Assembly: GCF_001956985.1 (NCBI RefSeq)
Contig: NZ_CP019082.1
Coordinates: 6,014,001-6,078,000 of the forward strand
From: Paludisphaera borealis
GTDB taxonomy: Bacteria > Planctomycetota > Planctomycetia > Isosphaerales > Isosphaeraceae
Direction of reading: 5' to 3'
DNA: 64,000 nucleotides
The notes beneath the pieces were generated by a model. It saw only the letters and a program-made list of their open reading frames with translations. It ran no database searches and was not told the origin of the DNA. Both the position numbers and the translations under genes were made by a program. Below, piece by piece: positions 516 through 54,004 of this stretch. Every line of letters starts with the position of its first letter. Within the stretch, counting starts at the first letter, position 1.

Positions 516-3383
516 TCAACGACTATTCGCCTGGGCGACGTTCGTTTCCCCATGCGCTTTACCCAGCGCCTTGGTGAGGAAGTCCTGGAACACGGCCGGC
601 TCGTTGTAGCCGCCCAGCGAGCCGAGGATTTTGCCGTCCGGGGCGATGATGACGTAGAACGGGTTCGTCTGCTCGGCCGCGAGGTCGAGCTGGCGATCCT
701 GGTTCTTGCGGGCCAGGTCCTCGCGCTGGTCGGCCGTCAGCGAGGCGATCGGCACGAAGTCGGTGTAGAGCTGGACCGTGACGAATTCCTTGAGCAGCTT
801 GACGACGTCCGGTCGCGGCAGCACCCGCCGTTCCATCAACCGGCAATTGGCGCAGTTGACGCCGGTGAAGTCGATCAGGATCGGCTGCTTCCGGGTCTTG
901 GCTTCCTCCTTGGCCAGATCGAGGCTCATTCCCCAGATCACGCCGTGGAGTTTCTTCTCTTCCCGTTCCGCCTGGACAGGGTCGGTCGACGTCGCCTTGA
1001 CCTCGCGAGCGGACTCGCCGCCGGCGGCGAGGAGCGGGACATCCGGCGCCGAAAACTCCGACGAGTCCGGCGGCAGGATGCCCACGATCAGGCGGTCCCA
1101 GATGAGGCCCTGCGGCGGCTTGTTGAAAAGGGCGGGGGCCATGTAGAGTCCCAGCCCCAGGAACATGCAGCCGAAGATGATCCGGCCGGGGCCGACTTTC
1201 ACCTCGTCGTAGTCATGATCGGTGCGGAACAGACCCAGCAGATAGATTCCGCAAACCACCGAGAGGATGATCCAGGCGGTGAGCACGAACTGGGCGTCGA
1301 ACCAGGCGTTCTCCGGCGTGACGTAGGCCAGTTCGGCGGTGTTGATGAACTTCAAGGCCGCGCCGATCTCGACGAGCCCGCCGACGACCTTGACCGAGTT
1401 CATCCAGTCGCCGCTCCGAGGCAGCTTCGAAAGCATGCCGGGCGCCAGCGCCAGCACGAAGAACGGCAACGCGACGACGGAGGCGAAGGTCGCCAGGCCA
1501 AGGATCGGATAGAGGAAATTGCCCCCCGCCGCCATGACCAGGAGCCCGCCGACGACCGGGAACGTGCAGGTGAATGACGTGATCGTCAGCGTGAGCGCCA
1601 TGAAGAAGACGCCGATCAGGCCGCCCCGGCTCTCGCCGCGCGACGAGGCGTTGAGCACGAAGCTGGGCAGGCTCAACTCGAACACCCCGAGCAGGCTCAT
1701 CCCGAAGGCCAGGAAGAGCCCGGCGACTGCCAGGTTCAGCCATGGGTTGTTGGCGAGGTTCTGAAGGAAGGCGGCCGAGAAGAAGAACGAGAAGAAGACC
1801 CCGACGGACGTGAAGATGCCGATGATCGCCAGGCAATAGGCGATCGCCAGCCCCGTCGTCTTTCCCGAGCCGTTCTGGCCCTGCTTGACGAAGAAGTTGA
1901 CCGTGATCGGGATCATCGGCCAGACGCAGGGCATCGCCAGGGCGAACAGGCCGCCGATGGCCGACGCGATCAGAAACGGAATCAACCCCTGCTGAGCCGT
2001 GCGCGCGATCTCACTGATCGGCGCGTCCGCCTTGGCGGCCAGGGCCGGCGTTTCGGCCGACGCAACGACAGGGCCTGAGGTTGCGGCGATGGCTGGAGCT
2101 TCGGCGACGGCCGGCGTCTTGGCCTCGGCACCCGCCGGGGTCTCGCTGATCGGCGCGGCCGGCTTGGCGGCCGGGGCCGGCGTTTTGAACTCGGTCGCTG
2201 TCAGTTGTGGGGCCGAGGGAGCGGCCGGCGCGGGGGGGGCCGTCACGTTCGCGGCCGGGCCGTCGCCGGCGACGACGTTGATCTCGACGTCGGCGAGCGT
2301 CTGATAGACCGGGGGAAAGCACGAATTCTCGTTGCAGATCTGGTATCCAGCCTGGGAACGGAGCGTGTGCTTGCCGGGCTTTGCGTCGGACGGCACTTCG
2401 AGGTCGAGAGACCATGTCACTTCGTTCTCGAAGTACTCGACGATCACATTGTCGCCGAACGCCGGCTCCGGCTTGGCGACCGGGTCCTTGGACGACTTCC
2501 ACTCCTTGGAAGGCCGAAGCGTGCCGGTGTCGAAGAAGTCGAACGAGGTCGGCGTCGGGCCGTTGCCAGGCACCCCCGGCTTGGCGAACTGGTAGACGTG
2601 AAGACCGGGATCGAGCTTGACCGTCACCTTGTATTTCACCGTCCGCCCGGGCTTCACATCCACGGGCTCGACGGTCGGGGTGAATGTCACGCCCTTGGGT
2701 CGGACGCGTGGATTACTGTCTTTCTTCGCGGGGCCCGCCGCCGAGTTTGGTGCGTCGAAATCGGCGCCGGCGGGAGCCTGGACCTCAGCCTTGGCCTTGC
2801 CGCCTCCGACGATGGTCACGACGGCGTCGGGCAACGTCCAGCGGCCCGCAATACTGCATTGCTTCGGGTTGCAAATCTGATAGTAGGCCTGGCACCGGAC
2901 GGTCTTCTTGCCGGCTTCGGCGGTCGCCGGTATCTGGAGCGGGATGCTCCAGACGACCTCGTCCTCGAAGAATTGGAACACCTTGTTCTCGAAGGCCGGC
3001 TCGGCTTTCTCCTCGGGCTTCTTCGACGCCGACCAGTCGCCGGCCGTTTCGAGCCCGCCAGCGTCGAACAGGTCGAAGATCGTATTGCGGGGGCCGTCGC
3101 CAACTTGCTTCTCGGCCTGGGTGTAGATGTGCCAGGTCGGATTCAGCTTGACGTGGACACGGAACTGCACCGTGTCGCCGGGCTTGGCCTCGGCCGGTTC
3201 GATCGACGTCGTCAGGACGGCGTCCTTGGGCCTGGCCCGGACGCTGCTGTCCTTTTTCGCCGGCTGCGGCGGGTCGGCTTGCACCCGATCGACGGCGAGG
3301 CTGGTCAAGACGAGCCCGATTGCGATGGCTCGGACCGTTCCGCTTCGGCGTCCGAGCAGGCCGGGAGATTGAAGCTGCGGCAT
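516..3383 (-). CDS. DsbD-like protein-disulfide reductase with duplicated N-terminal domain
   Basis: 955 residues, against about 565 for E. coli DsbD. After a signal-like N-terminus come two tandem DsbD-alpha-like immunoglobulin domains (about 50-190 and 230-375), each with the paired cysteines (ICNPKQC and ICNENSC). An Ala/Pro-rich linker follows (about 380-465). Next is the eight-helix CcdA/DsbD-type membrane domain (about 465-770), with its cysteines in MPCVWPM and SFTCTFP, and then a C-terminal thioredoxin domain with a CANC active site. The protein should move electrons from cytosolic thioredoxin across the inner membrane to periplasmic disulfide proteins. The two thioredoxin-fold proteins encoded at 20945-22297 are possible clients (inference). 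ATG start; the gene is convergent with the dehydrogenase. Confidence 0.9.
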   Translation of the reverse strand: MPQLQSPGLLGRRSGTVRAIAIGLVLTSLAVDRVQADPPQPAKKDSSVRARPKDAVLTTSIEPAEAKPGDTVQFRVHVKLNPTWHIYTQAEKQVGDGPRNTIFDLFDAGGLETAGDWSASKKPEEKAEPAFENKVFQFFEDEVVWSIPLQIPATAEAGKKTVRCQAYYQICNPKQCSIAGRWTLPDAVVTIVGGGKAKAEVQAPAGADFDAPNSAAGPAKKDSNPRVRPKGVTFTPTVEPVDVKPGRTVKYKVTVKLDPGLHVYQFAKPGVPGNGPTPTSFDFFDTGTLRPSKEWKSSKDPVAKPEPAFGDNVIVEYFENEVTWSLDLEVPSDAKPGKHTLRSQAGYQICNENSCFPPVYQTLADVEINVVAGDGPAANVTAPPAPAAPSAPQLTATEFKTPAPAAKPAAPISETPAGAEAKTPAVAEAPAIAATSGPVVASAETPALAAKADAPISEIARTAQQGLIPFLIASAIGGLFALAMPCVWPMIPITVNFFVKQGQNGSGKTTGLAIAYCLAIIGIFTSVGVFFSFFFSAAFLQNLANNPWLNLAVAGLFLAFGMSLLGVFELSLPSFVLNASSRGESRGGLIGVFFMALTLTITSFTCTFPVVGGLLVMAAGGNFLYPILGLATFASVVALPFFVLALAPGMLSKLPRSGDWMNSVKVVGGLVEIGAALKFINTAELAYVTPENAWFDAQFVLTAWIILSVVCGIYLLGLFRTDHDYDEVKVGPGRIIFGCMFLGLGLYMAPALFNKPPQGLIWDRLIVGILPPDSSEFSAPDVPLLAAGGESAREVKATSTDPVQAEREEKKLHGVIWGMSLDLAKEEAKTRKQPILIDFTGVNCANCRLMERRVLPRPDVVKLLKEFVTVQLYTDFVPIASLTADQREDLARKNQDRQLDLAAEQTNPFYVIIAPDGKILGSLGGYNEPAVFQDFLTKALGKAHGETNVAQANSR

Positions 3384-3519: not shown

Positions 3520-3675
3520 AACCATCATGACGCCGTGGAGACACCCGACCTCATGAGAATGGGGTGGCGCGTCGGCCGGGTCCGAGTACAAGCCCGAAGC
3601 GCCAGCGAGTGCATTGTTTTGCGTTCGCTGATTCGGCATGCCAGCGGGGAATTCACTCGCTGGCGCTTCGGGCTT
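3520..3675. repeat. Palindromic REP-like element, copy A
   Basis: A perfect 22-bp inverted repeat lies at 3590-3611 and 3654-3675, core AAGCCCGAAGCGCCAGCGAG, with a 42-bp loop. It is preceded at 3520-3564 by a boundary sequence beginning CCATCATGACGCCGT. The same arms and boundary recur at 53438-53773. A direct, weaker copy of part of the boundary (about 3739-3765, ending GATGAAAATGGGG) follows. This resembles a non-autonomous palindromic mobile element (REP/MITE-like); no transposase is present in the window. Confidence 0.75.
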
Positions 3676-3854: not shown

Positions 3855-4089
3855 GGCAAACCACAGACCGGAATTCTCAGGGCAACTCGAAGCGCCAGCG
3901 ATCGGACGCCCCTCCACTCTCCAGGATCAATATGCCGAACCTCGGAGAGCGTCTTCGGCGGGTCGTCCCAGGTCGTATATTCATAATGGTGAATCAGCGG
4001 GTGATCGTCTCTTTGTCAATCTGGCGGTAGGTGCGCGTTTCACAGGCGGGAGCCTCCCTCCGCCGGCGCTGGGGGCATCGAAAAAGCGA

Positions 4090-4662
4090 CGAACGGACCC
4101 AATCGTGATCGGCCCTCGAGAGGAGGCGGACAGGACGCGGGCGGACCCAAAAAAAAACGCGCGAACGGACCCAATCGGCGCGTCGTTGAAACGGGAGAGC
4201 CGTGCGGCTCCGACCAAGCGCCAGCACGGGAAACGTGAGCAAACGAACCCAATCCCCGAATCCTCTGTGTCGATGCAAAGAGTGTTGTGCAAATGCCTTA
4301 CAGGGAGAACGGCCGGTCGCCGTTCCAAGGTTTTCGGCGCGAACGGACCCAAATTCGGCCGGGACGGCGGGAAGGACGTCGGGGCGAGGAATCGGCGGCT
4401 TTCGGCGCGAACGGACCCAATCCGCCCGAGCTGCGTCGAGCGGGGTTGAAGCGTATCCACGAGGCGTAGTTCGGCGCGAAGGAACCCAATTCGACGTCCG
4501 CGGCCTCCAAGCCGGTGGGTAGGCCGGCCACGGTGCTGGATCGTCTCGACCGGGCGTGTTTCAGCGCGAACGGACCCAATCGGCCAGATGGTTATAAACT
4601 GTTTGACTTCAGTGTATTACAGCGTGTTCGTGGGCGTCCTGGTGGGAGCGAACGAACCCAAT
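4090..4662 (+). repeat. Interspersed array of a 14-base motif (CGAACGGACCCAAT), array A
   Basis: Eight recognisable copies start at 4090, 4162, about 4240, 4340, 4408, 4477, 4567 and 4649, all in the same direction and spaced 68-96 bp. Most carry the longer form GCGCGAACGGACCCAAT preceded by a T-rich stretch and CGG. A second form, GAGCAAACGAACCCAAT, is at about 4238-4253. The DNA between copies is unrelated from one interval to the next. A partial copy (GCGGACCCAA) at 4141 and a degenerate one near 4717 flank or interrupt the series. The array has no open frame that is plausible as a gene. An opposite-strand array with the same motif is at 52895-53400. Confidence 0.8.
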
Positions 4663-52894: not shown

Positions 52895-53400
52895 ATTTTG
52901 GGTTCGTTTGCTGTTTCCATGATCGCCCATGAAGAGTCGCAACCTGTTGTCCTCAAGTGTTTTGTATCGGCCTCTGAATTTGGCTTCGATCGCGCGGAAA
53001 ACCCCTCGGCGCCTCGCATCTGCTTCTCGCTTCCTCACCCCTTCGGATTGGGTCCGTTCGCGCGGAAAACACTCGATTTTCTTCCACAGGCGACCTTCCA
53101 GCGCCCTCGCCATTGGATGAGGACGCCCCCGACGAATTGGGTCCGTTCGCTCCGAATTCCCCGGGCCAGCTCCTGGGGAAATCGCTGTAAATTGAGATCA
53201 AAAAACGTATTGCGTCTCTTCAGTCGACTCCGGAAATTGGCTTCGTTTGCTCACGAATCCGGTGCCAACGGGTTGAATGACCGCCCTGTTTCACCCGGTC
53301 GTCCTCGATTCGCGTCGATGCGCGGATTGAGTCCGCTCGCGCGTTTTTGCCCCCCACGGCGACTCGTTCCCCTCGCATCGCCGGCTGATCGGATTGGGTT
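52895..53400 (-). repeat. Interspersed array of the CGAACGGACCCAAT motif, array B (minus strand)
   Basis: Seven copies read on the minus strand, with plus-strand starts (ATTGGG...) at about 52896, 52977, 53047, 53136, 53236, 53326 and 53393, spaced 67-100 bp. 53047 and 53136 match the consensus exactly; 53326 has two changes; 53393 is truncated. Two subtypes appear, GCGCGAACGGACCCAAT and a GTGAGCAAACGAAGCCAAT type (53236), the latter nearly identical to the variant at 4236-4253 in array A. Intervals share no other similarity. Confidence 0.78.
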
Positions 53401-53437: not shown

Positions 53438-53773
53438 AAACCATCATGACGCCGTCGGCACACCGGACCCCATGAAAATGAGCTGACGAGAAGTCACGCG
53501 GGCGGCCTCTGAATGGAAGCCCGAAGCGCCAGCGAGTGAATCTCCGGTCGGCCAGCGGGGAATTCACTCGCTGGCGCTTCGAGCTGATCTGAAAAATCGC
53601 CTTGGGACGAACCAGTGCATGCCCGAGTACAAGCCCGAAGCGCCAGCGAGTGCATTTCCGGTCGGCCGTTCGGGTCCATGCACTCGCTGGCGCTTCGGGC
53701 TTGTACTCGGACCCGGCCGGCGCGATGCCCCATTTTCATGAGGCCGGGTGTCCCCACGGCGTCATGGTGGTTT
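53438..53773. repeat. Nested palindromic element, copies B1 and B2 with inverted ends
   Basis: The outer ends, about 53438-53480 and 53729-53773, are imperfect inverted copies beginning CAAACCATCATGACGCCGT (also at 3520). Inside are two REP-like hairpins. B1 has arms 53517-53538 and 53565-53585 with a mismatch. B2 has perfect 33-bp arms 53623-53655 and 53678-53710 around a 22-base loop. The core AAGCCCGAAGCGCCAGCGAG is shared with copy A. The structure resembles a non-autonomous mobile element with a secondary insertion or a duplicated palindrome. Confidence 0.78.
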
Positions 53774-53819
53774 GTATTCGAACCGAGTCGACCACCTGGG
53801 CCGCGCATCCTTCGCTCGA

Positions 53820-53848
53820 TTGCCAAAGACCCTGTCGGTCGCTAATTC
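53820..53848 (+). promoter_or_regulatory. Possible promoter of the cupin gene
   Basis: TTGCCA (53820-53825) and TAATTC (53843-53848) are 17 bases apart in an AT-richer stretch, about 155 bases before the cupin start. Both boxes deviate from consensus. Confidence 0.3.
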
Positions 53849-54004
53849 TCCAATCTAAATATACGACATGGGAGGCTCGATCGAGGAAGCCTCGTCGGGG
53901 GGGCTGTTTGGTCGGACGGTCGACATCCCGGTTCCAACACTCGTTCCTCCGGTTTACGATGACGCCTTGTCCTGGAACCGCCAATGACGACCGGAGTTCG
54001 CCCC

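Follow-up and report, generated by a model that had tools for sequence, protein, structure and literature searches.

The window analyzed here, a 64,000-nucleotide stretch of the Paludisphaera borealis chromosome, carries two arrays of one short motif, array A and array B, each with dyad cores between some of its sites and a leader ahead of its first site (Table 1). A PWM scan of the window places eight strong 15-bp copies of the motif, all in one orientation, within array A on the + strand (4089-4662), where a codon-based caller puts no gene. This bears out the preliminary description of eight motif copies in a single orientation in non-coding DNA. The repeated unit that it described also stands, with corrected dimensions: the motif is 15 bp rather than 14 bases long, and the start-to-start distances in array A (72, 78, 100, 68, 69, 90 and 82) range over 68-100 rather than 68-96. 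The variation that it described as two subtypes is real, and comes down to alternative bases at two places of GCGAACGRASCCAAT, namely R (G/A) and S (C/G). It missed the quantization of the intervals in steps of 11.2 bp and the conserved dyad site within two intervals of array A.

At a PWM score above 11 the window contains 14 sites and the window read backwards contains none, using a matrix whose training set included arrays A and B themselves. A looser scan permitting up to three mismatches, which is a weak test, returned 18 matches against a shuffled mean of 8.53, and one of 100 shuffles reached 18. Comparison with paralogous arrays suggests that the element probably ends soon after array A site 8. 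Dispersed repeats containing GAAGCGCCAGCGA were also observed in the window (3594-3675, 3889-3905 and ~53520-53720), either upstream or in the stretch that separates the leader from the array; those of array B are found between the promoter/boxA and the first site, which stand ~490 nt apart.

Table 1. Positions of motif sites, dyad cores and leader elements of arrays A and B within the window.
Feature	Position	Strand	Basis
Array A -10-like element of the leader, GTCGTATATT	3972..3981	+	fits 47-leader logo
Array A boxA-like element of the leader, TCTTTGTCAAT, rrn-type antitermination box	4010..4020	+	rrn-leader likeness
Array A site 1	4089..4103	+	PWM
Weak degenerate copy between array A sites 1 and 2	4137..4151	+	PWM score 10.2
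Array A site 2	4161..4175	+	PWM
Array A site 3	4239..4253	+	PWM
Array A dyad core 1, inside 100-bp interval	4269..4307	+	dyad model
Array A site 4	4339..4353	+	PWM
Array A site 5	4407..4421	+	PWM
Array A site 6	4476..4490	+	PWM
Array A site 7	4566..4580	+	PWM
Array A dyad core 2, inside 82-bp interval	4588..4626	+	dyad model
Array A site 8	4648..4662	+	PWM
Array B -10-like element	53858..53867	-	window scan
Array B boxA-like element, ~490 nt upstream of array B site 1	53819..53829	-	window scan
Array B site 1	53326..53340	-	PWM
Array B site 2	53236..53250	-	PWM
Array B dyad core 1	53181..53219	-	dyad model
Array B site 3	53136..53150	-	PWM
Array B site 4	53047..53061	-	PWM
Array B site 5	52979..52993	-	PWM
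Array B dyad core 2	52933..52971	-	dyad model
Array B site 6	52897..52911	-	PWM

The leaders share a -10-like element, whose logo over 47 leaders reads GTCG-TAyAyT-nAAAaTGGa, and about half of those in P. borealis also have a box that matches the boxA (CTCTTTGACAATCCG) found in the leaders of all three rRNA operons of this species. The strict pattern TCTTTnnCAA was detected in the 350 nt preceding 32 of the 60 loci examined in this genome (28 lack it) and downstream of one of 60, a likeness to rrn-type antitermination leaders. By these signals the arrays look like transcription units in P. borealis. In another genus, TATAAT and CTCTTTGACAA are found upstream of one array (L106). The strict pattern was upstream of none of 47 loci in the congener G003, so boxA is not essential to the element. 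A second boxA-like sequence was observed behind a 16S gene of P. borealis (L129, ~1133-1148, - strand; GCTTTTTGACAATTCG on the 16S strand). In genus g17 (L106, G060, G062) CTTCAT-N5-CTTCAT direct repeats with an 11-bp spacing often come after the motif; we take them to resemble a PhoB-type operator.

Dispersed arrays, dyad core and helical spacing

The P. borealis genome comprises a 7,497,544-base chromosome and a 111,833-base plasmid. It contains 92 matches to GCGAACGGACCCAAT with at most one mismatch and none to the reversed pattern, and at least 116 exact matches to GCGAACGRASCCAAT. The 60 loci examined, 58 of them fetched and two being the window arrays, comprise 55 arrays (one plasmid-borne), three gene copies and two single sites. 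P. borealis carries ~55 dispersed non-coding arrays, and the genome-wide search thereby excludes the case, raised in the preliminary description, that the two arrays of the window are the only ones. Array counts are to be read as "at least": detection required an exact or one-mismatch 15-mer and matches to one motif subtype were listed up to 4.17 Mb, so some arrays, degenerate ones included, were missed.

When each of the first 50 loci is turned to its majority strand, 268 PWM sites fall on that strand and six on the other. A lone motif in the opposite orientation was observed ~0.5 kb from an array (G000:C1:4787426, in L034). The codon-based caller reports no overlapping ORF for 44 of 55 arrays, low-scoring overlaps for eight and high-scoring overlaps for three (L006, L024, L042), in two of which the start codon has probably been set too early. 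According to a simple caller, which called no next gene at L006, the next gene is co-directional for 31 of 54 arrays and convergent for 23, and the genes next to arrays appear unrelated by eye. These mixed directions and apparently unrelated neighbors rule out the arrays as leaders of particular downstream genes. No published description of such arrays was found in the open-access literature.

The dyad core has the 29-bp consensus CGYAAANYCYT-N7-AAGRNNTTRCG and scores above 10, at a fixed offset, in 51 of 59 intervals of 80-83 bp, the class on which the model was trained and where this count is circular; the 100-bp intervals and the arrays of congeners lie outside its training. In both 82-bp and 100-bp intervals the dyad center falls midway between the motif starts. 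Across 70 loci, 77 cores were detected in 29 kb of array compared to 22 in 264 kb of flanking sequence; one or two cores are present at 59 of these loci, and the other 11 have none. An RNA hairpin was ruled out for the dyad, because its halves do not covary: true halves form 5.88 of 11 pairs, compared to 6.22 after swapping. In a tyrosine-recombinase attachment site, two 11-bp core sites in inverted orientation flank an overlap of 6-8 bp. The dyad consensus fits this layout as 11-7-11, but its central 7 bp differ between copies. A dedicated tyrosine recombinase was also considered and rejected for lack of contrast, as PF00589 is present in all six congeners and arrays likewise occur in all six.

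Start-to-start distances between sites cluster near 45, 56, 67-68, 79, 90, 101, 112, 123 and 134. The best period over 253 spacings from 60 loci, four of these spacings coming from gene copies, is 11.20 bp (bootstrap 11.08-11.30; lattice phase 0.9 bp), and the 194 spacings outside the 80-83 class give 11.28 bp (11.14-11.36; phase -0.4 bp). The corresponding period powers are 64.6 and 87.2, compared to a maximum of 14.2 in 500 jittered sets. Helical repeats measured in vivo are given as 11 bp in one report (PMC8501960), and as 11.60 and 11.08, or 10.95 without HU, in another (PMC1762422). The 11.2-bp period thus corresponds to the helical repeat of supercoiled bacterial DNA, which would place the sites on one face of the helix. 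The lattice is demonstrated for the P. borealis genome; the 35 spacings of G060, from a second genus, do not follow it, with a peak at 9.88 and a stronger signal at 10.5 than at 11.2.

Further signals bear on how the sites are read. The 4-9 bases before the motif contain an A-run at 106 of 313 sites, a T-run at 100 and neither at 107, while elsewhere inside arrays each type of run occurs at ~4%. AAAA equals TTTT only as double-stranded DNA, and the interchangeability of the two points to a DNA-level feature. Folding of the spacers as RNA gave a mean z of -0.10 (171 spacers) and -0.09 (59 of the 80-83 class), compared to -0.27 for 230 control stretches taken 700 nt upstream. Because A- and T-runs are used about equally often, the dyad sits at fixed offsets without RNA covariation and the spacers are unfolded, recognition of the sites looks to occur at the DNA level.

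Arrays turn over in position. None of the five congeners has array A in the dsbD-phosphatase interval that it occupies in P. borealis, and none of the five has the argC array at the orthologous position. A close flanking orthologue in common with any of 47 G003 loci was found for only four of 60 own loci (L021, L033, L043, L085). At one intergenic region there is an array in P. borealis (G000, L043) as well as in G003 (L134), but the two point in opposite directions with respect to the genes on either side. Paralogous arrays within P. borealis are 66-86% identical over aligned stretches; many of these alignments extend from ~115-140 bases ahead of the first site to 1-9 bases past the last, and some reach further, to -330 or +117. 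The insertion of one copy at a time, one of the options that had been proposed, is not supported by these alignments: stretches of whole units match between paralogues, starting at the leader and continuing to the last sites, and individual arrays contain recurring units. In G003, compact modules have a third site that is either inverted (+67-23+) or 10 bp behind (e.g. +82+10+). The inverted motif was considered as an RNA partner of the first motif and rejected, since about half of ten pairs, inspected by eye, mismatch at the C/G position.

The NALKHG gene family and the distribution of its site

Three of the loci examined are copies of one gene with sites inside its 3' coding end. We refer to its family as NALKHG, after a motif that every aligned member retains and that the genome scan also required. 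No convincing Pfam match was found for the NALKHG protein or 35 members, and these Pfam searches detected no Y1 (HUH) or other transposase and no recombinase domain; one NALKHG protein had no NCBIfam match, and there was no PDB match. An AlphaFold2 model of L240 (pLDDT 84.6) is composed of helices only. Foldseek with this model found nothing below 0.001, and VIA-align returned mostly helical proteins, with Z up to 7.5. None of these family and fold searches yielded a match that indicates DNA binding by the NALKHG protein.

The succession of motif, core and motif is found inside the NALKHG gene in one of the own copies (L204), in G001 (with weak scores), in G003 and in another genus (G011). A contig scan detected 69 NALKHG loci, in Planctomycetota, Acidobacteria, Verrucomicrobia, Chloroflexi, Proteobacteria, Firmicutes and others. 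Some of these loci feature a relative of the motif after the stop codon or near the ORF end, direct or inverted and often with a T-run, and one verrucomicrobial gene has two motif copies 79 bp apart. Among 79 distinct ORFs, own and foreign, 35 have a site in their 3' window and 44 are without a match; this count includes paralogues and leaves out loci L279-L298 and repeated 60-base signatures. The site pattern, set after examples had been seen, matches 43 times in 44.6 kb of 3' windows compared to 10 times in 248 kb elsewhere, and its reverse does not match at all. Matches upstream of the ORF were found at three of 69 loci (L227, L276, L277). Identity among the own gene copies is 81-97%, and most pairs stop being similar at the end of a site. 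Of 17 genomes reached via 18 loci, two contain tandem pairs, namely a planctomycete with 24 and a verrucomicrobium with two gene-end modules; a longer T-run-plus-motif pattern, at one mismatch, has 1-9 matches in 10 of these 17 genomes and a single control match. Within this 17-genome sample, amplified arrays are a planctomycete feature.

Gene and arrays co-occur. A profile search detects the NALKHG gene in 35 of 45 family genomes; arrays were found in 23 genomes, all with the gene, while 12 have the gene without arrays and the ten without the gene have no arrays (23/0/12/10; Fisher p 2e-4, kinship ignored). For this comparison the array matches of G008 and G024, judged by eye to be protein-coding repeats, were set to none, and G009 was added by hand as array-bearing. 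Nine of the 23 array calls are based on one to three matches (G001 2, G004 3, G059 1, G009 1, G034 2, G018 3, G020 3, G030 1, G065 2), and G018 has one control match beside its three. Under a narrower, single-sequence search, six array-bearing genomes had appeared to be without the gene.

Arrays also keep their distance from each other. The smallest gap among the 55 chromosomal arrays listed is 31.3 kb, a minimum seen in none of 50,000 simulations; random placement of 55 arrays yields a mean of 10.2 gaps of 2-31 kb, with gaps under 2 kb dropped. These spacing counts exclude L008, L079 and L086 (gene copies), L011 and L015 (single sites) and L048 (plasmid), and add L113, detected as a pair match. 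The fully listed part of the chromosome, with 34 arrays, has the same minimum gap (P 4e-5). For the 55 arrays, gap lengths have an only mildly low coefficient of variation (0.76, P 0.03). In G003, where array positions mostly differ from those of P. borealis, all 29 gaps are 18.8 kb or longer (P 0.0025); they come from 53 clusters located on 24 contigs whose length is known, clusters on C120, C134, C152 and C187 being left out. Moreover, ten near-full-length gene copies, placed from 22 profile matches in the P. borealis genome, lie at least 34.6 kb from any array listed (P 0.002), and the 65 elements taken together (55 arrays and ten gene copies) retain the 31.3-kb minimum, which was reached in none of 200,000 simulations. 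This joint minimum spacing suggests that gene and arrays act as one class of element. Array distance from coordinate 0 is not uneven. Orientation relative to origin and terminus, which the preliminary description had put forward for counting, was checked against coordinate 0: 29 of 54 arrays point away from it, giving no replichore link and ruling out replichore-oriented sites such as KOPS.

Candidate functions of the arrays

We propose, with a probability of about one in two, that the arrays are one-face platforms on which the NALKHG protein or a partner binds, and that they have spread as a dispersed element. The NALKHG protein, or a partner encoded alongside it, would bind the sites and align on one helix face around the dyad. 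The gene and its site would together constitute an autonomous unit, of which the arrays may be amplified, gene-free derivatives, and the spacing could reflect either immunity to insertion close to a site already occupied or selection that favors a single complex in each stretch of chromosome. Platforms on DNA fit the helical register, the interchangeable A- and T-runs, the dyad and the mutual exclusion of the elements. The protein-binding platform that the preliminary description had listed as one option gains support from these same features, together with the lack of RNA structure and the separation of at least 31 kb. The NALKHG product is the leading candidate binder because the gene carries its own copy of the site across phyla.

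If the NALKHG protein is the binder, a multi-phylum family without known function would acquire a DNA target and, with it, a role that can be tested. In addition, the arrays would record the in-vivo helical repeat of planctomycete DNA in sequence, and their mutual exclusion would provide a natural system for insertion immunity over tens of kilobases or for the way chromosomal domains are laid out, in a phylum whose nucleoids are known to be unusual. A bolder version of the proposal, which we consider doubtful, envisages an undescribed bacterial system: a gene that spreads itself would bring its DNA address along, and gene-free, helix-phased arrays of this address would split the chromosome into one-platform stretches of at least 20-30 kb; a mobile element would here have turned chromosome organizer.

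A rival explanation is a purely selfish dispersed element, comprising non-autonomous copies mobilized by an unseen enzyme, with no host role and a spacing that reflects target immunity. The likeness of paralogous arrays and the many alignments ending near the last site point in this direction, as do the empty places in all five congeners at two loci, the scarcity of flanking orthologues common to own and G003 loci, and the high identity of gene copies whose similarity mostly also stops at a site. We nevertheless rate this explanation as possible but unlikely: NALKHG contains no recombinase or transposase domain, terminal inverted repeats and target duplication are not established, and motif, core and phasing are kept while the spacers drift, which suggests that binding is still in use. 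An alternative with host benefit, in which the arrays form an evenly spread set of chromosome-organizing anchors for which matS-type site sets offer a working analogy, would account for over-dispersion in two genomes whose array positions mostly differ. The missing replichore link, a gap variation that is by itself only mildly low, the turnover of array positions between congeners and the ten of 45 family genomes that lack both gene and arrays render this alternative unlikely.

The near-strict single orientation of the sites (268 vs 6) would also suit an RNA, and with the -10-like element and rrn-type boxA of P. borealis it raises the question of whether the arrays are long non-coding RNA genes, i.e. 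boxA-protected transcripts in which the motif acts as RNA (a sponge, scaffold or CRISPR-like guide array). The folding and covariation tests rule out an RNA gene as the main reading, since, in contrast to structured non-coding RNAs, neither spacers nor dyad have conserved or covarying structure. With A- and T-runs interchangeable, the motif inverted in G003 and other phyla, boxA absent in G003 and no Rfam family at or above cut-off in the seven array loci scanned, we regard RNA genes as very unlikely. Two Rfam matches below cut-off in these seven loci, mir-341 (L028) and a CRISPR repeat (L030), both lie off the arrays. CRISPR arrays themselves have near-identical repeats of ~23-47 nt and near-constant spacer length. 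The leader, the one-orientation repeats and the variable intervals are reminiscent of these; the arrays described here differ in their 15-bp repeats, start-to-start distances mostly of 44-135 on a helical lattice, DNA-level signals and ~55 loci, and the earlier judgment that they are not a CRISPR is upheld.

Several other known systems resemble the arrays in part. Iteron- and attP-type nucleoprotein sites likewise pair a dyad with direct repeats that keep helical register, whereas the central 7 bp of the array dyad vary and no constant replication or integrase neighbor was noticed among the flanking genes, inspected by eye. Cos-like sites combine a dyad with repeated sites beside it, resembling the mixture of repeats and dyad in the arrays. 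BIMEs are described as bound by host proteins, and the RAYT gene of the REP/BIME system as carrying the same element beside it (PMC2817692). The arrays are similarly numerous, dispersed and intergenic, and are tied to a gene carrying the same element; array copies also depend on the presence of this gene (arrays in 23 genomes, all 23 with the gene, and in 0 of 10 without it, kinship ignored and three genomes hand-adjusted). Unlike the REP/BIME elements, the array site is asymmetric and non-palindromic, occurs head-to-tail in helical phase, and is accompanied by a dyad core and a leader. The NALKHG site, moreover, lies mainly on the 3' side of its gene rather than on both flanks (35 of 79 ORFs; upstream at three of 69 loci), and NALKHG has no match to the HUH (Y1) transposase that typifies RAYT.

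A relationship to DNA packaging would fit the position of the site in or beside the gene of its putative reader (35 of 79 ORFs), an arrangement shared with phage pac/cos sites and with P22, whose pac lies inside its TerS gene (PMC9611059). NALKHG would then descend from a small terminase, its site would be a pac/cos-like target in its own gene, and the arrays would serve as extra packaging or tethering sites. A NALKHG gene lies directly upstream of a large terminase in L257 (PF03237, 3.5e-10) and in L264 (by sequence motif), and PHROG 9231, a terminase small subunit, matches four of 35 members (best 0.0049). These data make a small-terminase ancestry of NALKHG possible. The packaging reading as a whole is highly improbable: a terminase-like neighbor was found in only two of 89 loci by two regular expressions, both from one acidobacterium and Pfam-confirmed for L257 only, and the E-values are weak, while the Foldseek and VIA-align searches did not decide the matter either way. 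The ~55 arrays of the P. borealis genome are a further difference from phage pac/cos. The terminase-adjacent NALKHG genes are located at 3235-4080 in L257 and at ~3253 in L264, in the genome NC_groundwater_579.

A transposase-like ORF (MDIVHDRCAGLDVHKK...), which we presume to be IS110-like, was observed inside the first motif of two NALKHG copies (L206, ~1670-3140, and L208). An ORF resembling this transposase also adjoins array L014 on its downstream side, and the ORF possibly inserts with a preference for the site.
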